DNA from: Vigna angularis
Taxonomy: Eukaryota; Streptophyta; Magnoliopsida; Fabales; Fabaceae
Direction of reading: 5' to 3'
NCBI RefSeq assembly: GCF_016808095.1
Contig: NC_068979.1
Span: forward strand, 15,171,001-15,235,000
Length of the DNA stretch: 64,000 nucleotides
The notes below the pieces were generated by a model that saw only the letters and a list, made by a program, of their open reading frames with translations, was not told the origin of the DNA and searched no databases. Below, piece by piece: positions 2,147 through 53,887 of this stretch. The stretch's first letter is position 1; each line of letters opens with the position of its first letter. The translations under genes and the position numbers were made by a program.

Positions 2147-3419
2147 CAACCCCAAACTTAGAACTTTGCTTGTCCTCAAGCAAACAAGATGTAACTCAAT
2201 CTTCTACCAATTCATATGATGGTTCACTCATTCAAAAATCTTCTTTTCAAGATAAGTAAAGACTTCAATCAAACTTATGACCAAGAGTTCAATCAAGATG
2301 TGCACATGCTTTAGTGTTCACAAAGTCATTTAAATTCCAACAAATGCTATTTTTCATGAATGATCAATCAATTAAGCATGGATGTTCATGTGTTCATGGA
2401 ATATTTCCTCACTAGGTAAAGTGTTTCACTCACACACAAGTGTATAAGAGGTAATCACTCATTCACTCTACTATCACAATGTCACATGAATCAACTTTGC
2501 CTTTCATTTTACCACAATCAAAAACATTCACAAGCATGCATCATCACAAGGACTTTTCAATGGCTTATAATGTGGCTGGGCTAATAAGAAAATTGGTTTT
2601 TCTGGATCACAAAATCCTTGAGTTAAAAGAATCATAATCAACACAATTAGTCTTATTTTTCCCAACTTGCCTTTTGCATTTGCATTGAGCTTTGCTTCTT
2701 TTTCTTTTCTTTTCTTTTTCTTTGTATATTCTTACTTTTTAGCTCTTAGCTCAATGCTTTTCCTTTTTCATGTTTTCCCAACAACCCCAAACTTGAACAT
2801 TTAACAATACCACACAATATCTTCTACTTAACTCAAGGTAAAGATTTTCAATCAAGGGTTTTCAATTTATGTTCAAGGCTAAGGGTTTAAAGGATAGAAC
2901 ACAAAGTGTTCTCTTTTAGTGGGCTAACTTTATGAATTTGGCCAATAAAAAGGGTTCCAACAAACGGCCCTGATCACATGATGCAAAACAAGCAATTGAT
3001 TCACTCATAGAAAACCTGGGCAAAATCATTCATGCTTCCAAAGTAATAGCATTCAATCATAACAAAAACTCTGGAGCTCAAAACCTCACATATAAGCTCA
3101 TTCACATTTGACATACACATCCTGCTTAATTTCACAATCACAATCATAATATCATGCATTTGTTCACAAAGCTTGTGAATCACCTGTATAAGCATTTTAA
3201 TGTGCACATCATCTCAACATCAATCATTCAATAAGCATCATTCAGCATTACTTATCACACAATCACAGTTAATAGCAAACCATCATAACAAACCAGGTTT
3301 CCAATAGAGTACATCAAACCCTAATCTAAAAACAAAAACAAATAAGTTCAGAAAACTTAAACCAACAAAAGCATAAGCATATGATAGCATTCATCAGTAA
3401 ATGCTATCTCAACTCCTCA
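2147..3419 (-). other. E1 3' non-coding tail
   Basis: The probable polypurine tract (minus strand TTTGGGGTTG) lies at 2147-2156, right against the LTR. The rest is non-coding and conserved in E2, E5 and E7, including a pyrimidine run at about 2697-2723. Only short chance ORFs are present. A perfect 9-bp stem-loop at 3383-3408 is listed separately. Confidence 0.75.
3383..3408 (-). other. Stem-loop just downstream of ORF2 stop
   Basis: A perfect 9-bp inverted repeat (GATAGCATT / AATGCTATC) encloses an 8-nt loop, TACTGATG on the minus strand. It starts 11 bases past the ORF2 stop of E1. The same hairpin is at 9843-9868 in E2 and 50651-50676 in E7. The loop is that of the stem-loop array upstream of ORF2. 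Confidence 0.8.
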
Positions 3420-4646: not shown

Positions 4647-5808
4647 TCCTATATTCACACACAAATACAAAACCACAGAACATGATGTTAATCATTAGTA
4701 AAACACAGAACACAACTCCTTTCGAAGCTAAACCACCGCTGAGGGCCAGAATTTCCCCTCAGCGCAACCAGTGCCTTAGTCCAGAACGCAAAAATTCAAG
4801 AAAACTCAGGTCTGGCAGAGTGCCGCTCAGCGGCAGTTTACCCCTGAGCAGTAACTCTGCAGAGTTTTGAAAAACCTCTTTTAAAGCTGTCCTAATTCCA
4901 CCCAAATGCAATTTTCAGTTTTCCAGTTCATAATCATGCAGTTTAATCAGTTCAAACATCAAATATATCATCAAATCATGCATAGAAATCAAAACCCCTA
5001 AATAATCATGCTTTGACAATCACATTCAAAATCAAGAACCCTAGAATCAACAAAATGCATTTTACTTACTTGGGTGGAGATACTAGATGCAATGAGAATG
5101 CTTCCAAGCTAAAATGCTCTCTTCCAACCCCAAACTTTGATGGCACACTAGTGAAAAAGTGAGTGGAAGAGAAGTTTTCTTAAGAGGGAAGAGTGAAAAT
5201 ATGTGGAAAACCTTGGAGAAGGTATGTGGGAGTGTTTGTGCAAAGAAGAGCCTGAAAGAATGAACAATTACGCAGCTTAGGGTTTAAAAATACCCTAATG
5301 GGCTCGGGTCCCGCTAAGGGGAACTAAGGCCCATCTGCGAGAGTACCGCTCAGCGGTAAGTTGCCGCTCAGCGGCACTTTCGTGAAGTGCTCTTCTCCTT
5401 CTTTTCTTAACCTGCGTGCCTCCTATGCATGCCCCTCACTGGTTCCCTGCAATTTTATGCTTAAAATACTTATGCAAACCCTATTATGCAACTAAAATGA
5501 AACAAACAAAAACAATTAATCAACTGGGTTGCCTCCCAGGTAGCGCTTGTTTAACGTCACGAGCCTGACCCAAAATCCACCAACACCCATCAGTAGGTGT
5601 TACACACTTAGCATCCTTCAGTAGATGCTATATCCAACTGGCAAAATATTTACAAAATAATGTTCAACAGATTAAAAATTACAAACCAAAATAAAATTAA
5701 AAGTTCTAAAATCAACTGGGTTGCCTCCCAGCAAGCGCTCTTTTAACGTCATTAGCTTGACCCAGTAAAGCTCAAGTTCCTTATTCATAGTTGATGTTGT
5801 TCTCCCAC
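4647..5808 (-). other. E1 ORF2 leader: non-coding, GC palindromes and structured modules
   Basis: Upstream of ORF2 on the minus strand. CCGCTSAGCGG-type palindromes lie at about 4735-4860 and 5340-5385. A short mirrored motif TACCCTAATGGGCTCGGG occurs at about 5290. The stem-loop array and its two flanking modules (5522-5765) are listed separately. No coding potential beyond chance is seen. Confidence 0.65.
5522..5765 (-). other. Structured intergenic cassette of E1: two modules flanking stem-loops
   Basis: On the minus strand, module 1 (5711-5765) contains TTAAAAGAGCGCTTG and the hairpin CTGGG-AGGCAA-CCCAG. Module 2 (5522-5572) has TTAAACAAGCGCTACCTGGG and the same hairpin. Between them are AGCATC-TACTGAAG-GATGCT (5610-5629) and AACACC-TACTGATG-GGTGTT (5582-5601). 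Different stems are each perfectly paired around near-constant loops. The cassette lies between the polyprotein relic and ORF2. Confidence 0.8.
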
Positions 5809-5813: not shown

Positions 5814-7113
5814 TGATAACAGTTGAAAAACTGTTATTTTCATGCTTAAAATTGATACTAAAAGCAACCTTTATCCTTAGAAACTAGCTTGAAATCATGC
5901 TTTTATTCATATTTTCAGAAATAAGAGAGCTGGACAGGTTTATGCTTGATTTCAGTGTTTTTGTGCAGGTTTTAGGGTGAATTTAGTGAAAGAAGTGAAG
6001 AAGGAGAGAGATGAAATCAGAAAAGACACCAAAAAGTGCAAAATGGAGAAGCCGCAAGTACCGCTCAGCGGCAGTTTACCGCTGAGCGGCACTCAGGAGC
6101 TCACGGGAGGACCGCTGAGGGGCAAAATGGCCGCTGAGGGGAAGAACCGAGCTGACGCACTTACCGCTGAGCGGTAGTTTACCGCTGAGCGACACTATTT
6201 TTGGGCTTGGGCCTAATTTTATGTAATTTACAAATAATATATAAGCTTTAGGGTTTCCTAGGGTTAGTATCTTTGGCTGGGACGAAGCAAATACTCTCTC
6301 TTCCACCCCTTTGAAGGAGGATCTTGGATGCTCAGGCTACCTCTTCACCTTTCTAGGGTTTTATCTTTCATTCTTTCATTATTGTTCATCTAGGTTCACC
6401 ATGAATATGGTGAACTAAACCTTGTATGTTTGTTGGGGAATCAATGTAATCTTTTGAAGCTCTCATATATGGAATTTGTGCTTGCATCTTAATCTAAGAC
6501 TTATGCTTTCTTTCATCATTAGTTAGGGTTTTTCCTCTTTGCTCAAAGCTTGCTTTGTTTAACTCATTCAATGCATGATTATTGGTTTTGTCGATACGGA
6601 AACGTACGGGGAAGTCTAGATCTGGGGAATTTCTCCCAATAGGTATATTGGTTGCCTTAAGCTCCTGTGCTAAATAAACTAATTATTAGGGATGCTAGGA
6701 ATCGTATGAACTCGTAATTAGGGAGAAGCCTTCTTTGAAAGGTAATTTAGAGAGTGGCATTACCAATGATGAATTGAATGTTGAATTCCTAAAATATATG
6801 AGAGTGGATAAGATGAAATTGACCCCCAACAACATACTCATTCATTTATTCCATTGAAAGTGTTTGTATTTTGCTTTAGCCATTGATCACCCTCATGCAT
6901 ACATGTTTATTTTCGTCTTTTGCATATAAAATCCAATTATTTCGTTCTTAAGTCTTAGCTAATCAACGAATCACAACTAAACTAGGCCGTGAGTCCTTTG
7001 GGAGAACGATACTTGGTCTTACCGAGTTATTACTTGAAACGATTCGGTCATACTTGCCGATTGTAAAACAAGTTTGTGACATCACATTTTGGTGTTCATA
7101 AAATTGTTCATCA
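5814..7113 (+). repeat. E2 5' LTR (1300 bp)
   Basis: Begins TGATAACAGTTG and ends GTTCATCA, followed by the primer site. It contains the GC-palindrome block at about 6060-6195 and a TATA region near 6238. Its partner is 18362-19662. Confidence 0.93.
6234..6275 (+). promoter_or_regulatory. Probable LTR core promoter (TATA box plus telo-box-like repeats)
   Basis: AATATATAAGC is followed by TTTAGGGTTTCCTAGGGTT. TATATAA fits a plant TATA box, and the inverted AAACCCTA-like motifs resemble telo-boxes. The block is conserved in all family V LTRs here (for example about 18780-18810, 32125-32155 and 37060-37090). The start site is inferred to lie about 30 bp downstream; nothing in the sequence proves it. 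Confidence 0.5.
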
Positions 7114-7119
7114 AGTTTT

Positions 7120-7138
7120 TGGCGCCGCTGCCGGGGAC
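7120..7138 (+). promoter_or_regulatory. E2 primer-binding site (tRNA-Asp type)
   Basis: TGGCGCCGCTGCCGGGGAC lies 6 bases after the LTR. It is complementary to the 3' end of plant tRNA-Asp(GUC) except for one base: E1, E4 and E7 read GTTGCC where E2 reads GCTGCC. It primes minus-strand cDNA synthesis. Confidence 0.85.
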
Positions 7139-7180
7139 TCGTGGTTTAACTAGTTTATTTGTTTGATTATTGATTATCTT

Positions 7181-7380
7181 TGACTTGTTTTTTTTATTTT
7201 AAATTTCAAATTTTTATTTTCTGTTTATATTTTTCAGTTTTTATTTTATTTTATTTTATTTTATTTTATTTTTCTGTTTTTATCTTATTTTATTTTATTT
7301 TTTTGTTTTTATTTTATTTTATATTTTTGTTTTTATTTTATTTTATTTTATTTTATTTTCTGTTTCCTATCTTCTTATCT
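7181..7380 (+). repeat. TTTTA-type pentanucleotide leader repeat
   Basis: A nearly pure T/A tract of TTTTA units with TTTTTCTG interruptions, between primer site and gag. Equivalent tracts lie in E4 (27810-27920), E5 (33120-33235), E1 (24505-24545, complement) and E7 (54000-54140, complement). ORFs across it encode only Phe/Leu/Tyr runs and are not genes. Confidence 0.85.
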
Positions 7381-7462
7381 TTTCAATTTTATCTTTTGAT
7401 TTTTTTTCTATCTTTTTGTGCTAACAAATATTTTCTAGAGTTTTGTGCCTAATGTTTGCAGG

Positions 7463-8983
7463 ATGCAATTTGGTCAAGAATTTAACTATATGGGCACTCA
7501 ATTCTATCAAAGTAATCTCAACCACTAGTGGGAACCTCACTCAAGCATGGATGAAAGCCAATTTTGGCAAGCTGCCAGACAATTTGAGAACCAACCACAA
7601 CAACAATGGCAACAACAAAGCTTTAAAATCAACAAAGGGAAGCAAGAGATCTCTTCATTTAGACAAGGCATGGAGGAAACACTAGGTCACGCATGGGACA
7701 GGTACAAAAGCCTATTAAGAAAGACTCCCACGCATGGATTTAACGAAGAAGAAGTAGTCCTAATCTTCCTTGGAGGTCTTGGTTCACAAACCATGATGAT
7801 GCTTGACGCCTCAGCTGGAGGCAATATCAAATGGAAAACTCCAGAGGAAGCCACAGAAATAATTGAAAACATGACTACGAATGACAATAAGTGGAACAGT
7901 GAAAGAGGAGCTCCTATTCAACAAAAAGGAGTTCTACAGTTGCAATCTAATGATGCCTTTATAGCTCAGAACAAGTTAATAACTCAAGAATTGGAGAATC
8001 TCACAAAGATACTTGAACAATTGCCAAAAGAGTTAAAGACTGTTGCACAGATTCAACCACAGATGTGTGAATTGATGTGTGAATTATGTGGGGGTGACCA
8101 TATCAATGGTCAATGCGCCTTTCCAGTGGAAGCTTTAAAAGATGTTAACTTCACGGCCAATCAATTTCCATACTGTTAGGGAAACTTCAATGAAGGGTGG
8201 AAACCACACCCAAGTATTGGTCAAGAACAAAGTGGGCAAGCTGGACAATCAGGGCAATTTGACAAGCAACAACAACAACCCTCTATATCAGTAACTTTGG
8301 ATGACACCCTTCAACGATTTTTGAAAAATTCCGACTCTACTCAGAAAAGCATCGAAGAATCATGTAAAAGGATGGAGATGCACCTTCGTTACATTAGTCA
8401 GAGATTGAATGATGAGGTTAATACTGAAGTTAACCTTAAGGAGGAAGGGCAAACCAATGTCACTGAAAGTGACAAGATTCTTGATGAGAAAAAAATAGAG
8501 GGAGATGAGGAAAAGATAGAGAGAAAAGAGAAAGAAGAGTTGAGTGAGAAAAATAAAGATGAAGAAAAAGAGAAAGAAGTGGTTGAGAGAGAAGAGAGAA
8601 AGAAGATTTGTGTGAAAATAAAGAAGTTGAAAAGAAAAAGAAAAGGGAAGAAAAAAATGAAAGAAAGGAAAAAGAGAAAATTTAGGGAGAGAAAAAGGAA
8701 GAAAAAGAAGATGAGAGGAAAGAAGAAGAAATCATATGAAAAATCCCATCCTCATCTAAAGAAGAATCATGGGAAGGAAAAGAAATTCAAGTGCTTTATG
8801 GAAATCTTCAAGAAATTGGAGATTAAAGTTCCTATGACTGAGACACTGCAACAGGTTCCTGGTTTGATCAAATTTTTGAAGAAGTTCAGTAGGAAGAAGA
8901 AAAAGAAGAAGGAACTTGAGCTTTACTGGGTCAAGCTAATGACGTTAAAAGAGCGCTTGCTGGGAGGCAACCCAGTGATTTAA
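7463..8983 (+). pseudogene. Decayed gag-derived ORF of E2
   Basis: One frame from MQFGQEFNYMG to 8983, broken by TAG at 7526-7528 and TAG at 8177-8179. The first part is rich in Gln/Asn. The middle has gag core motifs (HAWDRYKSLLRKTP, NIKWKTPEEATEII) and a zinc-knuckle-like CELCGGDHINGQC (C-x2-C-x3-H-x4-C). The last 150 residues are a Lys/Glu-rich coiled, very basic stretch that ends by reading through module 1 (LLGGNPVI). The N-terminal part is a chimera: a Gln-rich segment is joined directly to KGKQEISS, which in E1 and E4 follows a longer N-terminal gag domain. Gag would form the particle and bind RNA; this copy is not translatable in full. Confidence 0.75.
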
Positions 8984-9256
8984 AAACTTTTGATTTTATT
9001 TTGGTTTTGTAATTTTTAATTTGTGGACATTATCTTGTAAATATTTTGTTGGACATAGCATCTACTGAAGGATGCTAGTTGGATATAGCATCTACTGAAA
9101 GATGCTAAGTTTGTAACACCTACTGATGGGTGTTGGTGAGAAAATTTTGCACCTACTGATGGGTGTTGGTAAGTATTGTAACACCTACTGATGGGTGTTG
9201 GTGGATTTTGGGTCAGGCTCGTGACGTTAAACAAGCGCTACCTGGGAGGCAACCCA
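8928..9256 (+). other. Structured intergenic cassette of E2: module 1, five stem-loops, module 2
   Basis: Module 1 is 8928-8976 and module 2 is 9210-9256. Between them are five hairpins. AGCATC/GATGCT occurs at 9057-9076 and 9087-9106 (the second with loop TACTGAAA), AACACC/GGTGTT at 9115-9134 and 9180-9199, and GCACC/GGTGT at 9149-9166. Loops are TACTGAAG or TACTGATG otherwise. The cassette lies downstream of gag and upstream of the ORF2 scar. Confidence 0.85.
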
Positions 9257-10712
9257 GTTGATTGATTGTTTTTGTTTGTTTCATTGTAGTAGTAATAGGG
9301 TTGTGCATAAGTAATCTGAGGATTGAATTGCAGGGAACCAGTGAGGGGCATGAGTAGGAGGCACCTAGGTTAAGCTAGAAAGAAGAAAAAAACTTCCCGA
9401 AAGTGCCGCTGAGCGGCAAACTACCGCTGAGCGGTAGTATCGCAGACTGAGCTTAGGTTGCCCCTTAGCGGAACCCGAGTCCATTAGGGTATTTTTATAC
9501 CCTAAGCTGCGTTTTAGTTTTCTTTTCAGAATCTTCTTTGCACACACACTCCTACATACCTTTTCAAAGGTTCTCCACATTTTTTCCCTCTTCCCTCTTG
9601 AGAAAATCTCCCTTTCACTCACTTTCTCACTAGTTTTCCATCTAAGTTTGGGGTTGGGAGAGAGCATCATTGAAGGGGCTGATTGCTTCATTGTAGTTTA
9701 CTAATGCTTAACAATGTATCTTTTGGTTTTGTGAATTATGTTTGATGTAGGGATGGCCTCTGCATCGGGAAGAAAGAATCAAGACTATAAGATCCAAGAA
9801 GAGGAGGATACAGATGATAGCTCAGATTGATGAGGAGATTGAGATAGCATTTACTGATGAATGCTATCATAATTAGAGCAGAACTTATGCTTTTGTTTGG
9901 TTTAGTGTTTTGTACTTATTTACTTTTGTTTTAGAATAAGGTTGATGTACTCTATTGGAAACTTGGTTTGTTATGATGGTTTGCTATTGACTGTGATTGT
10001 GTGATAAGTAATGCTTGATGATGATTATTGATTGATTGATGTTGAGATAGATGTGCACATAAAGTGCTTATACAGGTGATTCACAAGCTTTGTGAACAAA
10101 TGCAGGATATTATGATTGTGATTGTGAGATTAAGCATGATGTGTATGTCAAATGTGAATGAGCTTATATGTGAGGTTTTGAGCTCCAGAGTTTTTATTGA
10201 TTGAATGCTATTGCTTTGAAAGCATGAATGACTTTGCCCAGGTTTTCTATGATTGAATCAATTGCTTGTTTTGCATCATATGATCAAGGCCGTTTGTTGG
10301 AACCCTTTTTATTGGCCAAATTCATAAAGTAGCTCAGTAAAAGAGAACGCTTTGTGTTCTATCCTTTGAACCCTTAGCCTTGAACATAAATTGAAAACCC
10401 TTGAAAAGCTTTACCTTGAGTTAAGTAGAAAATCTTGTGTGGTATTGTTAAATGTTCAAGTTTGGGGTTGTTGGGAAAACATGAAAAAGCAAAAACAATG
10501 AGCTAAGAGCTAAAAAATAAGAATATGCAAAGAAAAAGAAAAAGAAAAGAAAAGAAAAAGAAGCAAAGCTCAATGCAAATGCAAAGGCAAGTTGGGAAGA
10601 ATAAGAACAATTGTGTTGTTATGATTCTCTTAACTCAAGGATTTTGTGATCCAGAAAAACCAATTTTCTTGTTAGCCCAGCCACATTATAAGCCATTGAA
10701 AAGTCCTTGTGA
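9257..10712 (+). other. E2 non-coding 3' internal region
   Basis: Contains two GC palindromes at about 9403-9438, the ORF2 deletion scar (9753-9830), a 9-bp stem-loop (9843-9868), and the family's long non-coding tail. The tail includes the purine run at about 10525-10565. The sequence is interrupted by E3 after 10717 and resumes at 17970. ORFs here are short and basic or antisense and look fortuitous. Confidence 0.7.
9753..9830 (+). pseudogene. ORF2 deletion scar: N- and C-terminus fused in a 25-codon ORF
   Basis: ATG at 9753 opens MASASGRK, matching the start of ORF2 (MASSSGKR in E7). It closes with EEEDTDDSSD and a stop at 9828-9830, matching the acidic C-terminus. About 1.15 kb of ORF2 is missing between them. 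The post-stop stem-loop follows at 9843. E2 therefore descends from an ORF2-bearing element by internal deletion that kept the frame. Confidence 0.8.
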
Positions 10713-10717
10713 TGATG
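10713..10717. repeat. Target site duplication of E3, left copy (tgatg)
   Basis: TGATG at 10713-10717 is repeated at 17965-17969. Joining the flanks gives the continuous E2 sequence seen uninterrupted at about 36240-36270. Confidence 0.9.
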
Positions 10718-12702
10718 TGTTGAGAGGGTCGCACCTCACACAAAAAGTTGATTGCAAAATTAATGCAGTATAAACTAAGAAGTGACTCCTAGGTCGTCTC
10801 TCAAGGACCAATGTGGTTCGAGTCTTCAGTTAAACACGTAGAGGGGGGGGATTTTGAAAGATTTTTGTGAATGCAACTGAACTTAAATAAGACACTAATG
10901 CAAACGGAAATGTAAAAAACGGTCTCAATTACAAAATTAAAGCGGTTGGTCAGTAAAGCTAACATTACTTTTAAATTAAAGGAGTGAAAATTAACCAATT
11001 TAAAGGAGTGAAAATTAACTTTGTGATGATTAACATTGAAAGGAGAATATGGTAATCAAGCAAAGATCACTTAAAAATTAGCAAGCATTCAAACCTAAGT
11101 GTATGCAATATGAAAATTGTAACAAAAAAAACTTGAGAATAGAATCAAAGCATTTAAATTAATTTAAAAGAAAACCCTTGGAGCATCTCTCTTGAACGTG
11201 GCAGCAGCTAAATAAATCAGTTTTCTCCTCTATGCTTCCAACACGTAGCAGGCCGTGACACTTGTGTGTTTGCTTCAATAAAATCAAATGCATTTTGCCT
11301 AAAAGGAATTAAATGTGCTTCTCCCAACCAAGTGTTCCTTGTCCGTGACAGCTGCTGGACCCTCATGTGCTTCTAATAAATCAATGTACTCTCACTACCC
11401 ACTCCCATCAAATCAACGAACTCTTTCTTCCAGCAAAGATAATGAAAATTAAATGTGCTTCCAGCTCACATTCTAGTGCACACCGCTTCTGCATCTGCTC
11501 CTTCTATTCTCCAAAAACAATTCAATAAAACTCTTTTCTCAAATACTATCACCGTACATCTACTACTACTGCCCTCCAAATGCCAGAATTGATGTGACCA
11601 TTCCTCACTCCTCATCATTCCAATCTTCACCCGTGGCCATGTTAATGTGTACTGCACTCATTCTTCATTTGTGCTTCTAGAAAGAAAATAAAGGAGCATG
11701 TGCCTCTGTTGCCAACGTGTTTTCAAACCCAGAAAATTCCAAAACAAAAACAAAACTACTCTTCCACATATTTTTTGTCCAAGCCAACACAACCGCGTAA
11801 AAAACCACGCTTCCCAAAACGCATATTATGATTGTTTTATGCTTCCCAAATCGAAAAACCTAAGGTCAGAGTTAGCGTCAAAGTACTCCCACCATCCCCT
11901 CTCAATCACCGTATGAATCTTCTACATGTTGTTGAAATACTCAAAACCAAGAGCTTCGTCCAGCTGCTCCAATGCTTCATCGTGCACTGTAATCCTTGCT
12001 CCAGCTCCCTCTCGGTGGCTTCCACTTTTCACCGTTCATTCACCAAGTTGAATGTGGCTTCTCCCTGCCGTGACAGCATCAAGCAGCGCATAAAAACCGT
12101 GAATGCACCAAGCTTAAATCAAAGCTAGCTTTCATAATAAAAATTAAACAGGGGTTGCTCATGAATCCAGCGCTTGCAAAAAGGAAATGGAAAAATTCAA
12201 ATCAAAAAACTAAAAAAAAAACTTAGAACCAAAACCGAGAGTGTAAAAAGTGCCAAAATGTGTGGCGGCTGGGCACCTCTCTAAGGACGTGTGTCCTCCC
12301 TTTAATAGGGATGGGGTCCACACAATAAAACCCTAGGTCCAAGTCACTAACTTCTAATTTTTGGGTCTAATCTAATTTACCAAAAATTGACCCAAAATAT
12401 AAGAGTTGATACAGAAATTCTAAATTACTGAATTACAATTTAATTAATTCTAAAATGTCTGTATGGAGAGTCTTGGATTTATTTAGCATTCTTCCTGATG
12501 TCCTAAAATGTATTTCCGAAATTTTCCTGCACTTCAAAAATGCACTTAATCAGCTCAGAAAACCCAAATTAGCACAATTACAAATTTCTGACCAAATTAA
12601 GCAGAATTCGGAAAACGGGGAAATAACAAACAATTAAACACAATTCCCTGGTTTATTTAAGTGCAATAAACTAAATATAATTCAAGAAATAACGACTCAT
12701 CA
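10718..12702 (-). repeat. E3 3' LTR (1985 bp)
   Basis: Matches 15949-17964 nearly base for base, including a run of eight G at about 10843-10850 and the A-rich 3' quarter. ORFs of 60-98 codons occur in both LTR copies but have no recognisable similarity and are probably fortuitous. Confidence 0.9.
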
Positions 12703-14149
12703 AAATAGACCACACTTAGTCTTTTGCACTCCTGGGCAAAACCAAGACGAAAACCAGGGAACTACTCAAACATCAGGGGGCTGACACAGACTCGACAGAC
12801 AGACAACAAAGACTCAACAAGGACAGAAACAAAATTACACAGTTCTCAAGAAATCTAGACCAAGAAAGGAAGTAGACAATTCCAACACAAAATGAATCAG
12901 AGAAAGCAGATACTCATGAGATCATCCAAGCAATTCAAGACATGACAAAATGATCAATCAGCTCAAGAGGTGAATCAAAAGCAACAGAACCTCACATATG
13001 CACTATCACTGTATCTCTCAAGTGTATAAGGTAAAGAATTTCAACTCAATGCACTCAAGAAAGCAAACAACAATAGACTTGGCAAGCCTCTAATATCAAC
13101 ACTCAAAACATATGCATGTTCAAATCAAAAGGTTTTTTCATGGTTGTAAAGGGGCCAAGGACAAGGAAGGATATATCTGGATAAGAAGCTACAAACCATA
13201 AGGAACAAAGGAGCAATGGGGAACAAGTGTAAACACAATCAAATACACCCAAAACCTCTAATTCAATCCTCTTCTTGACTCCATTATTCACAATTTTTTT
13301 TTTCATTCATTTTTTTTTCATCATGTCTCTTTTCTTTTCTTTCTTTTCAAAACAAAACTGTAAAAGACAAGATACACATATATTTACCAAAACAAAACAA
13401 GAAGAGGAACCAACTAGCCAACTCATCAGAAACCCCCAAGAGACCACACTTGTTCCCAAAACACTTCCAAAGCTCCAAAATTCCCTAAGGTTAAGGTAAT
13501 CATGGTTTTTCACTTAGGGCTAGTGTATGAGCATTCAAAACAAAGAAATGGGGGAAAGTATAGGCTCAAAAAGGGTTTTCAAAGGATTATAACAAGGTAA
13601 GCTTATTTGGCTGGAGAGGCTCAAGAACAAAACTGCCTTTATCACTTCCAAACATGCATATCAATCAAGAATTATCAACAAGAGTCAAGCCAAGGCATAT
13701 GCGCAAGCAATCAGGAGACATATCACACACAAGAAAGAACATAAAGTGGCTCAAATCTCACACAGGGAAATTGTCACAATCAATTCAACCTCTCAAACAT
13801 CATAATCATCTTCCCAAGCAAAGAAAAGCATGGGATTTCAAACCAATAAGTATCAATCAAGTGAAGTGAAAGACAAGTCTACAACTTAAACAAAATCCAG
13901 AAATTATGAGAAACATGCAAAACTGTACACAAGACACAACAAAAATAACCTAGAAAAGAAAAAATTTAACCAAGAAAACAAAAACTAACGAAGAAAAATA
14001 AAAATCTCCCCCAATAGACCACACTTAAACTACACAGTGTCCTCAATGTGTCATAAGCATAAGATCAGAAATCATAACAGTCAAGAAATCATGGACAAGT
14101 GCAATAAAAGTAGGGAAAGGGGGAGAAGAGAGAAAGAAAACTCCCCTGA
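12703..14149 (-). other. E3 non-coding 3' internal region
   Basis: On the minus strand this lies between the gag stop and the 3' LTR. It is A/C-rich with no supported ORF. The motif ATAGACCACACTTA occurs twice (about 12705-12718 and 14016-14029): once right at the LTR edge, where the polypurine tract should be, and once just after gag. The duplication suggests that the 3' tail carries a repeated priming-type sequence. Confidence 0.6.
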
Positions 14150-15766: not shown

Positions 15767-15926
15767 GGAAAAAGAAAAATACTAAAAATTACGAAACAAA
15801 TAAAACACAACACATTTATACATGCAACACGCACACACAAAACAGAACATCACATCACGTCACATCACAACACAAGACAAAACACAACACACACAAACAC
15901 AACAAAAACCTAAGACCGAACCATTG
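15767..15926 (-). other. E3 leader
   Basis: Short A/C-rich untranslated leader between primer site and gag start on the minus strand, with repeated CACATCACA-type words. Confidence 0.6.
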
Positions 15927-15945
15927 GTCCCCGGCAGCGGCGCCA
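15927..15945 (-). promoter_or_regulatory. E3 primer-binding site (tRNA-Asp type)
   Basis: In window orientation GTCCCCGGCAGCGGCGCCA, so the minus strand reads TGGCGCCGCTGCCGGGGAC, three bases from the LTR. It carries the same single mismatch to tRNA-Asp as E2. Confidence 0.85.
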
Positions 15946-15948
15946 TTT

Positions 15949-17964: not shown

Positions 17965-17969
17965 TGATG

Positions 17970-18361
17970 CATGCTTGTGAATGTTTTTGATTGTGGTAAA
18001 ATGAAAGGCAAAGTTGATTCAGGTGACATTGTGATAGTAGAGTGAATGAGTGATTACCTCTTATACACTTGTGTGTGAGTGAAACACTTTACCTAGTGAG
18101 GAAATATTCCATAAGCACATGAACATCCATGCTTAATTGATTGATCATTCATGAAAAATAGCATTTGTTGGAATTTAAATGATTTTGTGAACACTAAAGC
18201 ATGTGCACATCTTGATTGAACTCTTGGTCATAATGTTGATTGAAGTTTTTACTTATCTTGAAAAAGAGAATTTTGAATGAGTGAATCATCATAAGAATTG
18301 GTTGAAGATTGAGTTAAATCTTGTTTGCTTGAGGACAAGCAAAGTTCTAAGTTTGGGGTTG
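17970..18361 (+). other. E2 3' internal tail (resumed after E3)
   Basis: Continues the family V tail cut at 10717. It ends in TTTGGGGTTG (polypurine tract) directly before the 3' LTR. Non-coding. Confidence 0.85.
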
Positions 18362-19871: not shown

Positions 19872-21660
19872 CTAACAATGGTTACCTGCAACCTTGGGAT
19901 TTTCATCTATATGGCTAGTCATGTGTGCATCTTGAAATGCAGCTTTATAACTAGCTTCTTCCTCCTGTGCTTGTGTCTCATCTTTAAAGACATCTACAAC
20001 CACTCTCTCCTCTCGGTCCTGGAGCACCACTATACCTTCATTTACATCAATGATAGCTTTGGCCGTTTTCATAAACGGTCTTCCAAGTATGATAGGTATC
20101 TTCTCTGTCTCCATCTTCATCACCACAAAGTCTGCCAAGAACTGGAGTTTTCCAACACAAACTATAACGTCCTCTGCAATCCCACATGGTTCCTTTGAAG
20201 ATCCATCAGCCATTACTAACTTAACCTTTACAGGTTTCATATTAACATTGCCGATTTGCTCCAGTAAAGAGTAAGGTATCAAGTTAACACTTGAACCTAA
20301 ATCAAGAAGAGCTTTCTTCACCCTTTTCTTCCCTATGGTACAAGGGATAGAAAAGCTGCCTGGATCTGTTGCTTTAGGAGGGAATGGCTCTTTTTTAACA
20401 GTTATACACTCCTTTGCCTCATCATCTCTACGTCTTTTCTTTGTAGAGATGTCTTCATCAGTTTTAGTGTGAACTGTAATCTATTGTAGAATCTGCTCCC
20501 AAGGTGCATCATTATCCACCATTTTAAATAATTCTGTGAAGTCCAGTTGTTTCCCTTGATGTATTGGAAAAGGAAAAGTGTTTTTTCTCTCTATTTCTCT
20601 TCTCTCTTCTATATCTAACTCAACTTTCTCATCTTCAGTACTCTCTACCACCTTGCATTCTTCTCTGGGGTTAACCTCAGTATTAGCCCCAAAATTTCTG
20701 TTTGGCCTTTCTTCCACCTGCTTGGTGATCTGCCCCATCTGAGTCTCCAAATTTTTGATAGCAACTTCAGTGCTCTTTTGGGTAGACTCAGTTTTCTGTA
20801 TGAAATTGTTGAGAGTTTCCTCCATCCTCATGGACCTTTCATTAAGCATAGAGAACTGTTGCCATAAGGTGGGTTGCTGCTGCTGCTTATTATATTGACC
20901 AGCTTGCCCAGTTTGCCCTTGACCAATACTTGGGTGTGGTTTCCACCCCTGATTGTAGCTCCCTTGACGGTACTGATTGGTCATGTAGTTTACATCCTCT
21001 ACGACTTCAACTGGAAAGGCACATTGACCATTGATATGGTCACCTCCACACAATTCGCACAACTGGGATTGTACCGGTGCAACAATATTCAACTCTTTGG
21101 GTAATTGTGCAAGAGTTTTAGTAAGAGTCTCCAGCTGTTGAGTTAGAATTTTGTTTTGAGCTAGCAGGGCATCATGTGTCTGTAAATGAAGGACTCCTTT
21201 TTGTTGCATAGGAGCTCCTCTCTCACTATGCAGCTCATTATCACTAGTAGGCATGTTTTCTATAATCTCTGTTGCTTCCTCTGGAGTTTTCCATTTAATA
21301 TTGCCTCCTGCTGAGGCATCCAGCATCATCTTGGTTTGTGAACCAAGACCTCCAAGGAAAGTTAAGACTACTTCCTGATCTTCAAAACCATGCGTGGGAG
21401 TTTTACGTAACAAGCTTTTATACCTGTCCCATGCATGCCCCAATGATTCTTCCATGCCCTGCTTAAATGAAGAAATCTCTTGCTTGCCTTTAGTCACCTT
21501 TGATTGTGGAAAGTACTTGTTTAAAAATTTGGTTACCACTGCTTCCCACTCTGTGAAACTTTCTTCTGGAAAAGAATTTAACCAAAGCTTAGCATTGCCT
21601 CCCAATGAGAAAGGAAACAAGCTAAGTTTGATCGCTTCATCTGGCACCCCATTTATTTTG
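19872..21660 (-). pseudogene. E1 gag (C-terminal two thirds) and aspartic protease
   Basis: One minus-strand frame with a single TAG at 20481-20483. From the solo-LTR insertion it reads NGVPDEAIKLSLFPFSLGG and FLNKYFPQSK (capsid core), then HAWDRYKSLLRKTP. The zinc-knuckle-like CELCGGDHINGQC lies near 21040-21070. A Gln-rich segment, the LETQMGQITKQ coil and an acidic linker follow. After the TAG comes a retropepsin-like domain: ALLDLGSSVNLIPYSLLEQI (active-site D-L-G-S), VMADGSSKEP, ILGRPFMKTA. The frame ends at 19872. Gag and protease would assemble and mature particles. RT and integrase do not follow, so the element depends on others. Confidence 0.8.
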
Positions 21661-27298: not shown

Positions 27299-27714
27299 AT
27301 TGTATGAACTCATAATTAAGGATAGGCCTTCTTGACAAGGTGATTTAGAGAGTGGCATTAACATTGATGAAAAGATTGTTGAATTCCTAAAATATAAGAG
27401 AGTGGATAAGATGAAATTGATAACCCCAACAACATACTCATCCATATAATTCATTTCGTGTTTGTTTTACTCTTTTTGTCATCGATCACATTCATGCATA
27501 CATGTTTAATTACTGTCTTTTGCATTAAAACTACAATCAATCGTTCACAAGTCTTAAATAATCACCGAATCACATAACTAAACTAGGTCGTGAGTCCTTT
27601 GGGAGAACGATACTTGGTCTTACTGAGTTTATTACTTGAAATGATTCGGTCACACTTGCCGATTGTTAAACAAGTTTGTGGCGCCGTATTTCGGTGTTCA
27701 TAAATTTGTCATCA
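27299..27714 (+). repeat. E4 5' LTR, distal 416 bp
   Basis: From ATTGTATGAACTCATAATTA to TTTGTCATCA, closest to the E5 LTR (32587-32993). The upstream LTR part has been replaced by satellite. Confidence 0.85.
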
Positions 27715-32993: not shown

Positions 32994-32999
32994 AGTTTT

Positions 33000-33018
33000 T
33001 GGCGCCGTTGTCGGGGAC
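33000..33018 (+). promoter_or_regulatory. E5 primer-binding site (tRNA-Asp type)
   Basis: TGGCGCCGTTGTCGGGGAC, with one mismatch (T for C) relative to E4. The TTTTA-type tract follows at about 33120-33235. Confidence 0.85.
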
Positions 33019-33313
33019 TCGTGGTTTAACTGGTTTATTTGTTTGATTATTGATTATCTTTGACTTGTTTCTGAATTTTTAATTAAAAATTTCGAATTTT
33101 TATTTTCTGTTTATATTTTTCAGTTTTTATTTTATTTTATTTTATTTTATTTTTTGGTTATTATTTTATTTTATTTTATTTTATTTTATTTTTCTGTTTT
33201 TATTTTTCTGTTTTCTGTTTTTATTTTATCTTATTATCTCTGATCTTATATCTTCCTTTATATCTTTTTGTGCTAACAATTGTTTTTAGGGTTTTGTGCC
33301 TAATGTCTGCAGA

Positions 33314-34702
33314 ATGCAATTTGGTCAAGAATTTAACTATATGGGCACTCAATTCTACCAAAGTAATCTCAATCACTAGTGGGAACCTCACTCAAGCATG
33401 GATCAAAGCAAATTTTGGCAAGCTGCCGGACAATTTGAGAACCAACCACAACAACAATGGCAGCAACAAAGCTTTAAAATCAACAAAGGGAAGCAAGAGA
33501 TCTCTTCGTTTAGACAAGGCATGGAGGAAACACTAGGTCACGCATGGGACAGGTACAAAAGCCTATTACGAAAGACTCCCATGCATGGATTTGACGAAGG
33601 AGAAGTAGTCCTAATCTTCCTTAGAGGTGTTGGTTCACAAACCATGATGATGCTTGACGCCTCAGCTGGAGGCAATATCAAATGGAAGACTCTAGAGGAA
33701 GCCACAGAAATAATTGAAAACATGACTACTAATGACAATAAGTGGAACAGGGAAAGAAGAGCTCCTATTCAACAAAAAGGAGTTCTACAATTGCAATCCA
33801 ATTATGCCTTGATAGCTCAGAACAAGTTAATAACTCAACAATTGGAGAATCTCACAAAGATACTTGAACAACTGCCAAAAGAGTTAAAGACTGTTGCACA
33901 GGTTCAATCACAATTGTGTGAATTATGTGGAGGTGATCATATCAATGGTCAATGCGCCTTTCCAGCAGAAGCTTTAGAGGATGTTAACTTCATGGCCAAT
34001 CAATTTCCATACAGTCGGGAGAATTTCAATCAAGGGTGGAAACCACACCCAAGTATTGGTCAAGGACAAAGTGGGCAAGTTGGACAAACTTGGCAATTTA
34101 ACAAGCAACAGCAACAACCAACCTTATGGCAACATATTTCTATAATTAATGAAAGATCAATAAGGATGGAAGAAACTCTTTAGCAATTTATACAGAAAAC
34201 TGAATCTTCTCAAAAGAGCACTGAAGCTGCTATTAAGAACTTGAAGATTCTAATGGGGCAGATTACCAAGCAGTTGGAAGAAAGGCCTGACATGGATTTT
34301 GGGGCTAATACTGAGGTTAACCCCAGGGAAGAGTGTCAAGAGCTAGTGAGTGTAAATGTTGAAAAAGTTAAGTTGGAAAAAGAAGAGAGAAAAGAGAGAG
34401 AAGAGAAAGAAGAAGAGAAAATTTGTGTGAAGATTGAGAAGGTGAGTAGAAAAAGAAAAGAAAAAAAGAAAGTGAGAGAAAAGAGAAAGAGGACGAGAGG
34501 AAAAAAGAAAGAATCATATGAAAAACCTCGTCCCCATCCAAAGAAGTATCATAGGAAGAAGGAATTTGAGCACTTTATGGAAATCTTCAAGAAATTGGAG
34601 ATTAAAGTTCCTATGATTGAGACATTGCAACAGGTTCCTGGTTTGATCAAATTTCTGAAGAAGTTCAGTAGAAAGAAGAAAAAAAAAGAAGAAAGAATAT
34701 GA
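33314..34702 (+). pseudogene. Decayed gag-derived ORF of E5
   Basis: One frame with TAG at 33377-33379 and TAG at 34181-34183. It has the same chimeric start as E2 (MQFGQEFNYMG, Gln-rich stretch, then INKGKQEISS), a capsid fragment (HAWDRYKSLLRKTP), CELCGGDHINGQC, the Gln-rich PHPSIGQGQSGQ region, the MGQITKQLEERP coil, and a Lys/Glu-rich tail. The tail ends shortly before module 1. The first TAG is at the same codon as in E2, where E7 has TGG. Confidence 0.78.
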
Positions 34703-34707: not shown

Positions 34708-35012
34708 GGTCAAGCTAGAGACGTTAAAAGAGCGCTTGCTGGGAGGCAACCCAGTGATTTAAGAACCTTTTAATTTTTGATTTGGTGATGTAATTTTGAA
34801 CTTTTGGGTATTTTTTTTTTGTTAAACGTTTGTTACAGGGTTTACATCTACTGATGGATGTTAGGCGGAAGAGTATCTACTGAAGGATACTATGTTTGTA
34901 TACACCTACTGATGGGTGTTGGTAAGGAAAATTTGCACCTACTGAAGGGTGCTGGAGGATTTTTGGTCAGGCTCGTGACGTTAAACAAGCGCTACCTGGG
35001 AGGCAACCCAGT
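34708..35012 (+). other. Structured intergenic cassette of E5: module 1, four stem-loops, module 2
   Basis: Module 1 is 34708-34754 and module 2 about 34965-35012. The stem-loops have four different stems: ACATC/GATGT (34844-34861), AGTATC/GATACT (34872-34891), ACACC/GGTGT (34902-34919) and GCACC/GGTGC (34935-34952). Every change on one arm is matched on the other. Loops are TACTGATG or TACTGAAG. Confidence 0.85.
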
Positions 35013-49411: not shown

Positions 49412-50687
49412 CAACCCCAAACTTAGAACTTTGCTTGTCCTCAAGCAAACAAGATGTAACTCAATCTCCAACCAATTCATATGATAGTTCACTCATTCAA
49501 AAATCCTCTTTTTCAAGATAAGTAACAACTTCACTCAAACTTATGACCAAGAGTTCAATCAAGATGTGCACATGCTTTAGTGTTCACAAAGTCATTTAAA
49601 TTCCAACAAATGCTATTCTTCATGAATGATCAATCAATTAAGCATGGATGTTCATGTGCTTATGGAATATTTCCTCACTAGGTAAAGTGTTTCACTAAAC
49701 ACACAAGTGTATAAGAGGTGTAGTGTTTCGCTCATTCACTCCACTATCACAATGTCACATGAATCAACTTTGCCTTTCATTTTACCACAATCAAAACAAT
49801 CACAAGCATGCATCATCAAAAGGACTTTTCACTGGCTTATAATGTGGCTGGGCTAACAAGAAAATTGGTTTTTCTGGATCGCAAAATCCTTGAGTCAAGA
49901 GAATCATAACAACACAATCATCTTATTCATTCCCAACTTGCCTTTTACAATTGCAACTGCATTGAGCTTTACTTCTTTTTCTTTTCTTTTCTTTTTCTTT
50001 GCATATTCTTACTTTTTAGCTCTTAGCTCAATGCTTTTTATGTTTTCCCAATAACCCCAAACTTGAACATTTAACAATACCACATAAGATCTTCTACTTA
50101 ACTCAAGGTAAAGATTTTCAATCAAAGGTTTCAAGTGTATGTTCAAGGCTAAGGGTTCAAAGGATAGAACACAAAGTGTTCTCTTTTAGTAAGCTAACTT
50201 TATGAATTTGGCCAATAAAAAGGTTCCAACAAATGGCCTTGATCACATGATGCAAAACAAGCAATTGATTCAATCATAGAAAACCTGGGCAAAATCATTC
50301 ATGCTTTCAAAGTAGTAGCATTCAATTATACCAAAAACTCTGGAGCTCAAAACCTCACATATAAGCTCATTCACATTTGACATACACATCCTGCTTAATC
50401 TCACAACCACAATCATAATTTCATGCATTTGTTCACAAAGCTTGTGAATCACCTGTATAAGCATTTTAATGTGCACATCTATCTCAACATCAATCAATCA
50501 CTAAACATCATCAAGTAGTACTTATCACACAATCACAGTTAATAGCAAACCATCACACAAACCAGGTTTTCAAAAGAGTACATCAAACCCTAATCTAAAA
50601 ACAAAAACAAATGAGTTCAGAAAACTTAAACCACAAAAGCATAATCATTTGATAGCATTCATCAGTAAATGCTATCTCAGCTCCTCA
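49412..50687 (-). other. E7 3' non-coding tail
   Basis: Polypurine tract (minus strand TTTGGGGTTG) at 49412-49421, then the conserved tail as in E1. A perfect 9-bp stem-loop lies at 50651-50676, eleven bases past the ORF2 stop, with loop TACTGATG on the minus strand. No real ORF. Confidence 0.8.
50651..50676 (-). other. Stem-loop downstream of intact ORF2
   Basis: GATAGCATT / AATGCTATC arms with an 8-nt loop, the same as at 3383-3408 and 9843-9868. Its constant distance from the ORF2 stop suggests a 3'-end or translation-linked RNA signal. Confidence 0.75.
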
Positions 50688-51911
50688 TCAGTCTGAGCTC
50701 TCTGTATCTTCCTCTTCCTCCTCATCTTCATCTTCATCAAATGCATCCTCCTCCTCATCTTCATCTTCTTCCATATCTCTAGCTGAAGCTTCAGCTGCTT
50801 CAGCTTCTCCATGCAATGGTTCTTCTGGCCAAGCTACCACATTATGGAATTCATCCATAGTCCACCTGTGTGCTGGAGGATTATCATACATCCCCACTAT
50901 CATCTCAGCAGTGGCCACCTGCCCTCTGTGAATGGACTGCAACTGAGCACCTATAAGAGACATATACATGTCCCTCATCTGGAATGGTTCTGCTTCATGT
51001 GTATCCACAGACGTCCGGCTCTGTGCTGGCCCTCTACGAGCCTGGCGTGGTGGAACTGGCTGAGCTGCATCCTCACCTCCACAGTACTGTCTATAATAAG
51101 CCTCATCAATAGCTTTTCTTGGCCTCTCAAATGGTGGAACAGAAGTGTCCACCCCAGCTTGCTTGCAAAGGTGAGTGATCAAAGAAGGATGTCCTAGTGG
51201 TGCTTTGTTGTTTGAGGTGTTAGCACATACACTGATTTCATCAGCTATTACCTGCCCAATATTAACATTCAAGTTTCTGATAGCACAGTAGATGAATAGT
51301 GCCCTGCTGAGAGTAATATCTGACACATGTGAACATGGCTGAATGTTGGCATGAGAAAATGCCATCCAATATTTTGCAAGAGGAGTCAAATCCGTCCTCC
51401 TAATATTAACCACTGCGCCAGATCTATTCCTTTGGAAGTGTCCTCCAGGTATACACAGTACTCTCTCAACATCCTCAAAGTCAGCACCTTCCTCCATGCT
51501 AAGAGCAAACTGACATTGCTCACCAGCCCACACAGTATCCAGGAAGTTGTTGATAGAATCAGGATGAAACCTGATAGCATGGCCTCTGACATAGCCCAAA
51601 TAATTCTCAGCTGGATGGCCACCAATCTTCTTTGCATTGGTGTAGAATTCCTTGACCACAACTATGTTGGCAGGTGCTGGATAAGTGGCTAGCTTTCCCC
51701 AATCATTCCCTAACACTTGCTCTCCAAATTGAGGAGCAAAGTTAGGTATCATTCCAACTTTTCTCTCCATTAGAAGTCTCCTGTCCTGAACCACCCTAAA
51801 GTGCTTCTCATGTTTCCTAGAAAGGAACCTGCCATTATGGGGCTGCTCTGGTTCCTTTTCCTTTCTCTTGGTTGCCATGGTTTTCAATCTCTTTCCAGAA
51901 GAGGATGCCAT
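50688..51911 (-). CDS. ORF2, intact plant transposon-protein-like accessory protein (407 aa)
   Basis: Starts MASSSGKRLK (ATG ending at 51911). A frame extension upstream begins just before a TTGAATGCAG that could be a splice acceptor. The N-terminus is basic (KRLKTMATKRKEKE), a possible nuclear signal. The core (about 45-270) has NDWGKLATYPAPANIVVVKE, FYTNAKK, YVRGHAIRF, SINNFLDTVW, LTPLAKYWM and GQVIADEISVCAN. This fits the 'putative plant transposon protein' domain (PF20167). A Pro/Arg/Gln linker follows, then a segment MRDMYMSLIGAQLQSIHRGQ, and an Asp/Glu-rich C-terminus of about 35 residues. The sense orientation, downstream of gag and near the 3' LTR, is that of an additional or env-like ORF of Athila elements. 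Molecular function is unknown. Confidence 0.82.
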   Translation of the reverse strand: MASSSGKRLKTMATKRKEKEPEQPHNGRFLSRKHEKHFRVVQDRRLLMERKVGMIPNFAPQFGEQVLGNDWGKLATYPAPANIVVVKEFYTNAKKIGGHPAENYLGYVRGHAIRFHPDSINNFLDTVWAGEQCQFALSMEEGADFEDVERVLCIPGGHFQRNRSGAVVNIRRTDLTPLAKYWMAFSHANIQPCSHVSDITLSRALFIYCAIRNLNVNIGQVIADEISVCANTSNNKAPLGHPSLITHLCKQAGVDTSVPPFERPRKAIDEAYYRQYCGGEDAAQPVPPRQARRGPAQSRTSVDTHEAEPFQMRDMYMSLIGAQLQSIHRGQVATAEMIVGMYDNPPAHRWTMDEFHNVVAWPEEPLHGEAEAAEASARDMEEDEDEEEDAFDEDEDEEEEEDTESSD

Positions 51912-52993
51912 TCCTGCATTCAAAACACAAACCAAAACCACAGAACATGATGTTAATCATTAGTAAACACAGAACACAACTCCTTTCGAAGCTAAACCAC
52001 CGCTGAGGGCCAGAATTTCCCCTCAGCGCCACCAGTATCACACGCAAAACCAGAAAAACCAAATCTGGCAGAGTGCCGCTCAGCGGTAAATGCCGCTCAG
52101 CGGTGACCTGCAGATTTTTGCAAATCTCGTTTTAAAACTGTCCTAACTCCACCCAAATGCAATTTTCAGTTTTCCAGTTCATAATCAAGCAGTTTAATCG
52201 GTTCAAATATCAAGTATATCATCAAATCATGCATAGAAATCAAAATCCCTAACTATTCATGCTTTGACAACCACATTCAAATTCAAGAACCCTAGAATGA
52301 ACCAAATGCATTTTACTTACTTGGGTGGAGATGCTAGATGATATGAGAATGCTTCCAAACTAGAATGCTCTCTTCCAACCCCAAACTTTGATGGCACACT
52401 AGTGAAAAAGTGAGTGAAAGAGAGATTTTCTAAAGAGGGAAGAGTAAAAAGATGTGCAAAACCTAAGAGAAGATATGTGGAAGTGTTTGTGCAGAGAAGG
52501 GCTTGAAAGAATGTAAAAACGCGCAGCTTAGGGTTTAAAAATACCCCAATGGGCTCGGGTTCCGCTAAGGGGAACTTAAGCCCATCTGCGATAATACCGC
52601 TCAGCGGTAATTGCCGCTCAGCGGCACTTTCGTGATGTGCCCTTCTCCTTCTTTTCTTGACCTACGTGCCTTCCCTACATGTCCCTCATAGGTTCCCTGC
52701 AATTCAATGTTAAAAATGCTTATGCAAATCCTAACTAAAAATAAATAAACAAAAACAATCAATCAACTGGGTTGCCTCCCAGGTAGCGCTTGTTTAACGT
52801 CACGAGCCTGACCCAAAATCCACCAACACCCATCAGTAGGTGTTTCAAACTTACCAGCACCCATCAGTAGGTGCAAAATTTCTTACCAACACCCATCAGT
52901 AGGTGTTACAACATTGTATCCTTCAGTAGATACTTAACCACCTAGCATCCTTCAGTAGATGCTAAATTCAACAAAATATTTACAGAATAATGT
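51912..52993 (-). other. E7 ORF2 leader with GC palindromes and stem-loop cassette
   Basis: Minus strand, between ORF1 and ORF2. Module 2 is at 52764-52815. Five stem-loops lie at 52825-52963 with stems AACACC (two copies), GCACC, GTATC and AGCATC, all perfectly paired. GC palindromes lie at about 52075-52105 and 52597-52627. A pyrimidine stretch and AAATGCATTTTACTTACTTG (about 52306-52325) could hold splice-donor-like signals. No other ORF. Confidence 0.75.
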
Positions 52994-53085: not shown

Positions 53086-53887
53086 AAAGCTTAAGTTCCT
53101 TCTTCTTTTTCTTCTTCCTACTGAACTTCTTCAGAAATTTGATCAAACCAGGAACCTGTTGCAGTGTTTCAATCATAGGAACTTTAATCTCCAATTTCTT
53201 GAAGATTTCCATTAAGCACTTAAATTTCTTTTCCTTCCTATGATTCTTCTTTAGATGAGGATGGGATTTTTCATATGATTTCTTCTTCTTTCCTCTCATC
53301 TTCTTTTTCTTCCTTTTTCTCTCCCTAAAATTTCTCTTTTTCTTTTCTTTTATTTTTTTCTTCCCTTTTCTTTTTCTTTTCAACTTCTTTATTTTCACAC
53401 AAATCTTCTTTCTCTCTTCTCTCTCAACCACTTCTTTCTCTTTTTCTTCATCTTTATTTTTCTCACTCAACTCTTCTTTCTCTTTTCTCTCTATCTTTTC
53501 CGCATCTCCCTCTATTTTTTTCTCATCAAGAATCTTGTCACTTTCAGTGACATTGGTGTGCCCTTCCTCCTTAAGGTTAACTTCAGTATTAACCTCATCA
53601 TCCAATCTCTGACTAATGTAACGAAAGTGCATCTCCATCCTTTTACATGATTCTTCAATGCTTTTCTGAGTAGAGTCGGAACTTTTCAAAAATCGTTGAA
53701 GGGTGTCCTCCAAACTTTCTGATAGAGAGGATTTTTGCTGCCATTGTTGTTGTGGTTGGTTCTCAAATTGTCCGGCAGCTTGCCAAAATTGGCTTTGATC
53801 CATGCTTGAGTGAGGTTCCCACCATTGGTTGAGATTACTTTGGTAGAATTGAGTGCCCATATAATTAAATTCTTGACCAAATTGCAT
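52994..53887 (-). CDS. ORF1 of E7, shortened gag-derived basic protein (297 aa)
   Basis: Starts MQFGQEFNYMG, with TGG where E2 and E5 have TAG. The Gln-rich segment (QPQQQWQQKSS) is joined to SLEDTLQRFLKSSDSTQKSI, so the whole capsid core and zinc knuckle seen in E1/E5 are deleted. Residues of about 95-225 are extremely Lys/Glu-rich (KKKMRGKKKKSYEKSHPH-type). The C-terminus has KLEIKVPMIETLQQVPGLIK, also found in the spacer of E4, and reads through module 1. It may bind RNA through charge; no catalytic or zinc motif remains. The open frame may be by chance or selection. Confidence 0.65.
   Translation of the reverse strand: MQFGQEFNYMGTQFYQSNLNQWWEPHSSMDQSQFWQAAGQFENQPQQQWQQKSSLSESLEDTLQRFLKSSDSTQKSIEESCKRMEMHFRYISQRLDDEVNTEVNLKEEGHTNVTESDKILDEKKIEGDAEKIERKEKEELSEKNKDEEKEKEVVEREERKKICVKIKKLKRKRKGKKKIKEKKKRNFRERKRKKKKMRGKKKKSYEKSHPHLKKNHRKEKKFKCLMEIFKKLEIKVPMIETLQQVPGLIKFLKKFSRKKKKKKELKLYWVKLMTLKERLLGGNPVIDKLLILIWFNL

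Follow-up and report, generated by a model that had tools for sequence, protein, structure and literature searches.

Adzuki bean (Vigna angularis) LTR elements carry arrays of short hairpins in which a near-constant loop sits on compensated stems, mispairs favour G·U over A·C, the hairpins lie in sense orientation and the coding context differs between element types. The reading that we tentatively favour is that the array acts in cis as RNA, with a protein recognising the stem-loops by their loop, most likely for packaging of genomic RNA; we infer the protein binding, Gag as the binder and the packaging role. How plant LTR retrotransposons choose RNA for their particles, and how gene-less ones are carried, is to our knowledge still an open question. 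With thousands of occurrences in a crop genome, a repeated RNA motif that is short and co-varies would make it testable with small RNAs and purified proteins, and would give a handle on element families whose coding parts are gone.

Self-comparison of the window (the whole 64,000-nucleotide stretch analysed, from contig NC_068979.1) revealed four related LTR elements, labelled here E1, E2, E5 and E7; E1, the element of the finding, is apparently the E2 of the earlier note on this DNA.

5814-19662, plus strand: LTR element E1, with a nested insertion at 10718-17964
845-25939, minus strand: LTR element E2, interrupted by E1
31720-37938, plus strand: LTR element E5
48064-55714, minus strand: LTR element E7

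LTR pairs in the four elements are 97.6–98.7% identical, the upstream LTR of E7 being rearranged. Next to this copy (54292-55714) stand, in place of a PBS, the same bases that flank the 3' LTR of E7, so that the copy is rearranged or tandem. The elements carry gag, E2 and E7 also ORF2, and no pol-like ORF of at least 150 aa was found in E1, E2, E5 or E7.

20481..21647, minus strand: gag of E2, matching PF03732 (E = 3e-17)
50688..51941, minus strand: ORF2 of E7, an open frame matching PF20167 (E = 1e-65)

E5 gag falls just below the PF03732 cut-off (23.4 bits, cut-off 24.1), and the E7 gag ORF had no PF03732 match. Named matches to E2 gag are mostly legume proteins; window ORF2 is 74–93% identical to the best 20 matches listed, all predicted Vigna angularis proteins, and its structure prediction (pLDDT 35.8) was too low to use. 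After the 5' LTR, E1, E2 and E5 have GGCGCCG(C/T)TG(C/T)CGGGGACT, a candidate PBS. A PBS for tRNA-Asp is described for Diaspora and Calypso (PMC1142308), and an additional 3' ORF with PF20167 for a sunflower Athila (PMC11728184). Judged by sequence, the four elements look like pol-less, Athila-like (gypsy/Athila) LTR retrotransposons. Arabidopsis has Athila elements that carry gag and env and lack pol, a coding layout like that of E2 and E7; the main text of the paper on them mentions no hairpin, palindrome, stem or inverted repeat (PMC2410132). No relatives were found in viral and prokaryote sequence collections. The nested element at 10718-17964 has 2-kb LTRs and a gag-like ORF, and its 3' part is 76–79% like a non-coding element described below (L018); it holds no hairpin of the TACTGA-loop family. 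At 25943-27302 lies a tandem repeat of about eight copies with a unit of about 175 bases.

All 16 array hairpins and three solitary hairpins reported by the earlier note were located in the window, each on the sense strand.

9057..9199, plus strand: E1 array, five hairpins, loops at 9063, 9093, 9121, 9154 and 9186
5582..5629, minus strand: E2 array, two hairpins, loops at 5616 and 5588
34843..34953, plus strand: E5 array, four hairpins, loops at 34849, 34878, 34907 and 34940
52825..52963, minus strand: E7 array, five hairpins, loops at 52950, 52921, 52894, 52862 and 52831
9843..9868, plus strand: E1 solitary hairpin, 9-bp stem GATAGCATT, 12 nt past the end of an internally deleted ORF2 region
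3383..3408, minus strand: E2 solitary hairpin, past the end of the ORF2 region with the same sequence preceding it, the frame being broken earlier
50651..50676, minus strand: E7 solitary hairpin, 11 nt past the ORF2 stop

E5 lacks the region that holds the solitary hairpin elsewhere. The loop is TACTGAAG or TACTGATG in 18 of the 19 hairpins, constant but for one as had been claimed, the exception being TACTGAAA at 9093 in E1. Stems of the E1 array read, in order, AGCATC, AGCATC, AACACC, GCACC and AACACC, and its first two hairpins (h1 and h2) resemble a local duplication or conversion. Of 28 sense TACTGA in the four elements, 22 begin an 8-base loop whose stem has five pairs or more, compared with 0 of 8 on the antisense strand and 0 of 12 outside the elements, and TACTGA is the window's top hexamer for heading 8-base-loop hairpins (background 0.95%). 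A covariance model (R1) recovered the 19 hairpins, as expected because it was built from them, and nothing else in the window up to E = 5. Rfam gave no match in the window above gathering score, and the LTRs of E1, E2, E5 and E7 contain no hairpin of the family. Pairing of the loop in trans with the element was considered and rejected: CATCAGTA is present on the sense strand of the E5 LTR and absent from that of the other three LTRs.

A gag-internal hairpin with nearly the same loop, missed by the earlier note, is present in all four elements.

8413..8438, plus strand: E1 gag-internal hairpin, loop TACTGAAG, coding part of NTEVN
53572..53597, minus strand: E7 gag-internal hairpin, loop TACTGAAG
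34300..34325, plus strand: E5 gag-internal hairpin, loop TACTGAGG, one C·A mismatch in the stem
20666..20691, minus strand: E2 gag-internal hairpin, loop TACTGAGG, one C·A mismatch in the stem

The mismatch in E2/E5 is at pair 4, and pair 7 differs by a G-C to A-U change, one of E2/E5 and E1/E7 having G-C and the other A-U. Because the loop codes part of NTE.N, a peptide kept in many legume gags, the loop match may be convergence. These hairpins were left out of the covariation analysis, and R1 (E up to 5) did not recover them.

Covariation was assessed over 14 distinct rows and six pairs, comprising five stem pairs and the loop-closing U·G. Standard pairs occupy all 84 cells. The covariation score was 0.491, compared with 0.264 ± 0.037 in shuffled alignments (0 of 500 as high), and the same structure slid along the alignment scored only 0.040–0.229; two of the five shuffle measures were weaker, as the number of pairs changed on both sides was reached in 10 of 500 shuffles and that of further pair types in 500 of 500. 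Stem positions 2, 3, 5 and 6 change with both arms together, in agreement with the earlier note. Of the six-pair stem that it had proposed, five core pairs stand, with one G·U among them in the window set; position 1, the outermost, is unpaired in 6 of 14 distinct rows, is not maintained and falls outside a core made of five pairs and the loop-closing U·G. In the hairpin with the odd loop TACTGAAA, this closing pair becomes U-A.

Counted by hand under parsimony, there were at least five two-sided stem changes, in E5 h1 (pair 2), in h2 (pair 3), between the T and C types (pair 5), between h4 and h3/h5 (pair 2) and in the solitary type (pair 6). These core stem changes are all transitions. With two random substitutions in the ten core sites, the probability of one fully compensated branch is 0.037–0.079, and of five 7e-8 to 3e-6, values that overstate the case because the hairpins were noticed by their pairing. 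Whole-unit conversion, which the earlier note had named as a way in which stems might change without compensation, cannot have given rise to the stem types seen at a single window position (ACATC/GATGT in E5 h1, AGTATC in h2 and AGCATT past ORF2). In this comparison of four elements, divergence among E1, E5 and E7 was 2.5–9.4% in loops, 6.7–14.3% in stems and 12.4–26.5% in spacers; for pairs with E2, stem divergence ranged from 0 to 20% (15 sites each).

Several observations favour the sense RNA as the selected form. With the gag hairpins included, the sense strand folds more stably than the antisense strand in 20 of 23 hairpins (mean −9.6 versus −7.5 kcal/mol), the other three being E1h2, the E2 gag hairpin and the E5 gag hairpin. 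Pairs were also counted in 22 motif-bracketed arrays, 4 of them in the window and 18 from elsewhere in the genome, at 97 sites located by TACTGA alone: 485 core cells held 470 Watson-Crick pairs, 12 G·U, 1 A·C and 2 others, so that 99.4% were paired compared with 87.7% with arms shuffled (G·U versus A·C, P = 0.003, binomial test, copies not independent). Sites outside the motif bracket, some of them stray TACTGA next to arrays, gave 220 Watson-Crick, 19 G·U, 10 A·C and 26 other among 275 cells, and all 152 clustered sites, strays included, gave 690, 31, 11 and 28. These pairing counts are biased towards intact units because array loci were located with a pattern in which the loop and some of the 3' arm are fixed; in one set of 57 TACTGA sites, 13 adjoined hairpins without being hairpins themselves. 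Genome-wide, the second pair from the loop was C-G in 2,247 cases, U·G in 426 and C·A in 25 (reversed controls, 0–1), a contrast predicted by selection on the sense RNA, on the assumption that decay alone would yield U·G and C·A about equally. The 426 U·G cases are not 426 events because one two-hairpin family inflates the count: among 18 stretches picked from the genome U·G list, 16 bear one identical two-hairpin type.

Folding of whole arrays was less uniform. Several hairpins lose to pairing with neighbours (mean core pair probability 0.02–1.0), most strongly h3 with h5 in E1 and E7. The arrays of E1 (z = −2.97) and E7 (z = −3.21) are more stable than shuffles, and that of E5 hardly beats them (z = −1.19, 9 of 100 shuffles as good). 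The sense RNA is favoured because the segment between the arms is near-fixed while the arms vary, the sense strand folds better and the mispairs lean to G·U; selection on an RNA fold, as the earlier note had proposed, is supported, and the fold itself well supported.

On either side of each array in the window stands a copy of a motif that ends in GGGAGGCAACCCAG, in E1 as follows.

8927..8975, plus strand: E1 flank motif M1, with GTCA..TGAC, AGCGCTTG and CTGGGAGGCAACCCAG
9210..9258, plus strand: E1 flank motif M2, with CAAGCGCT, complementary to AGCGCTTG of M1

M1 and M2 could pair over 8 of 8 bases (ensemble probability 0.01–0.52), and these letters are invariant among the four elements.

A genome-wide search for the loop with part of an arm gave 6,661 matches, compared with 126 for the reversed pattern. 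Sampling covered 35 places with the pattern on C1 and five 10-kb stretches of C10. In the C1 sample, 17 of 35 places had an array between two motifs (18 arrays); within the stretches fetched there, 14 showed the gag hairpin and 13 the solitary one. At another nine (L013, L018, L019, L020, L022, L024, L028, L030 and L036), arrays or hairpins were accompanied by a single motif or by none. Since the remaining nine (L010, L011, L012, L014, L015, L016, L017, L021 and L023) had no convincing hairpin, not all of the 6,661 matches are hairpins. Arrays had between 2 and about 9 hairpins, which shows that their number need not be fixed.

Two further contexts, with one example each, separate the array from ORF2. 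On the minus strand of L024, a pol-like tail frame and its stop are followed by the motif TTGGGAGGCAACCCAA and then by eleven TACTGA sites, 8 of which have at least four consecutive pairs; the frame resembles the end of pol (tblastn with P0102, taken to be pol, 69% over 36 residues). Compared with CTGGG..CCCAG of the window, TTGGGAGGCAACCCAA shows an outer pair changed from C-G to U-A. LTR identity in L018 is 99.9% across 1,210 bases and 98.9% across another 652. The PBS of L018, at 2329, is preceded by about 45 bases that do not align with the 3' LTR, and a purine tract lies ahead of that LTR. Its array (about 2551-2970) lies about 220 bases past the PBS and comprises nine TACTGA sites, each with at least four consecutive pairs, among them the new stem TACTGC/GCAGTA. 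No gag, pol or ORF2 similarity was found in L018 (tblastn, five queries), nor any Pfam match in the five ORFs scanned of ten listed. L013, L019 and L022 share its 3' part and have two or three hairpins. The array is thus not tied to ORF2, to which the earlier note had bound its role, occurring past a pol-like tail and near a PBS. Because a gene-less element should keep what a function in cis needs, retention of the array in the young L018 suggests such a function.

RNA hairpins that bind proteins typically have a loop that is read and a stem that must only pair. Each adzuki hairpin would form, in the sense transcript, a 5-pair stem closed by U·G with ACUGAN as its loop; where N is U, the alternative is a CUGA tetraloop closed by A-U. 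The stem would need only to pair, the loop would be the part read, and copies side by side could create a high-avidity site for a protein. Unspliced genomic RNA might then be recognised for packaging by Gag, the element's own or a helper's. Unspliced genomic RNA would contain the gag hairpin and the array, and the solitary hairpin would be present in both genomic RNA and ORF2 mRNA. Selection of genomic RNA by Gag is attractive because it fits the element with a pol-like tail, those with gag and ORF2 and the gene-less one. A broader version, more doubtful than the packaging role itself, is that legume Athila-like elements mark their genomic RNA by multiple loop-read stem-loops, a dispersed packaging code common to pol-bearing, pol-less and non-coding elements that would let non-autonomous ones use another's Gag.

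The main rival, which we consider unlikely, is control of splicing or export: the array would be intronic to a spliced ORF2 mRNA, and would keep RNA unspliced or bind a nuclear ORF2 protein for export. It ranks first because the array lies upstream of a conserved acceptor-like TTGCAG|GG, the acceptor-like sequence (TTGCAGGG, or TTGTAGGG in E5) following about 65–90 nt past the second motif in all four elements. A donor-like CACCCAAGTAAGT is found in E7 and E2 and an acceptor-like AG right before the ORF2 ATG in E7 and E1; all these splice sites were called only by eye and from their pattern. For a related ORF of a sunflower Athila, nuclear localisation is predicted (PMC11728184); against this reading, L018 has the array and no recognisable ORF2. 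The TACTGA loop also resembles a plant branch point, a role rejected because the distance is too long: in E1, about 140 nt separate the last hairpin from the AG.

Somewhat less probable is that the arrays have no function, tandem-repeat turnover and template-switch correction of imperfect palindromes keeping the arms complementary. Unit numbers of 2 to about 9 and the likeness of E1 h1 and h2 are consistent with this, as are the tandem arrays common in retrotransposons (PMC11963269). However, turnover of this kind predicts neither a near-fixed loop beside diverging spacers, nor G·U over A·C, nor the same loop past ORF2, about 2 kb away in E7, and unit conversion cannot yield novel stem types.

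Two readings are improbable. The palindromes might act as DNA, host transcription factors binding them as dyad sites ahead of an internal promoter for ORF2, in line with a TATA-like sequence seen by eye downstream of the array and with the clustering of Sirevirus palindromes upstream of ENV and in LTRs (PMC2829016); such sites should keep their arms and free their spacer, the reverse of what the arrays show, a G·U over A·C bias is meaningless in double-stranded DNA, and the LTRs of the four elements lack family hairpins. Action on ORF2 translation or on 3'-end formation of gag mRNA accords with the array lying between gag and ORF2 in window elements, but not with arrays past a pol-like tail and in L018, where no ORF2 is recognisable, nor with the distance of about 0.9 kb to the ORF2 ATG in E7.

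Of known systems, dispersed RNA packaging signals of ssRNA viruses, with many stem-loops, a common loop and free stems, offer a parallel; they differ in that coat protein binding is shown there. The earlier note's statement that no described feature resembles the arrays was too strong. The closest described feature is the repeated motifs of Sireviruses (Ty1/copia), palindromes of which 77 of 79 in the linker lie upstream of the env-like gene; they also occur in LTRs, have a CGG-CCG core in 12 of 13 elements and are called Sirevirus-specific, classic Ty1/copia elements being without them (PMC2829016). Both features are short palindromes clustered in non-coding DNA upstream of an env-like gene, yet conservation is opposite: arms are conserved in Sireviruses, whereas the adzuki arrays co-vary in their arms around a near-fixed 8-base loop, are absent from the LTRs of the four elements, lack the CGG-CCG core in all six array and solitary stem types and belong to elements that look gypsy/Athila-like. 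Palindrome clusters in maize Sirevirus LTRs, with consensus CACCGGACNNNGTCCGGTG, are linked to small RNAs and likewise give RNA structure from repeated palindromes, but with arms fixed and the middle free (Bousios 2016, as described in PMC10760457). Retand and other elements have tandem repeats between pol and the 3' LTR (PMC11963269), alike in region; in the adzuki arrays, spacers diverge while hairpins are kept. No description of such a hairpin array was found in the accessible plant retrotransposon literature, which lay mostly outside subscription journals.

A better match to the Sirevirus motifs, and distributed like them, is a separate set of 31 CCGCT(G/C)AGCGG palindromes in the window, often paired 17–18 nt apart, which the same elements carry both in their LTRs and ahead of ORF2 (at 1769, 1872, 1890, 6061, 6079, 9406, 9424, 25585, 31966, 31984, 52076, 52093, 52597 and 52614, among others). 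The flank motifs form hairpins of their own (GTCA..TGAC and CTGGG-AGGCAA-CCCAG, two copies per element in all four), diverge by 0–6.6% compared with 12–32% for spacers (six element pairs) and, in L024, lie directly past the pol-like tail. A polypurine-like AAGTTTGGGG, also found at the 3' LTR, occurs upstream of ORF2 at 9641-9660 and 52398, where it is a possible second priming site; multiple PPTs are described for Sireviruses.
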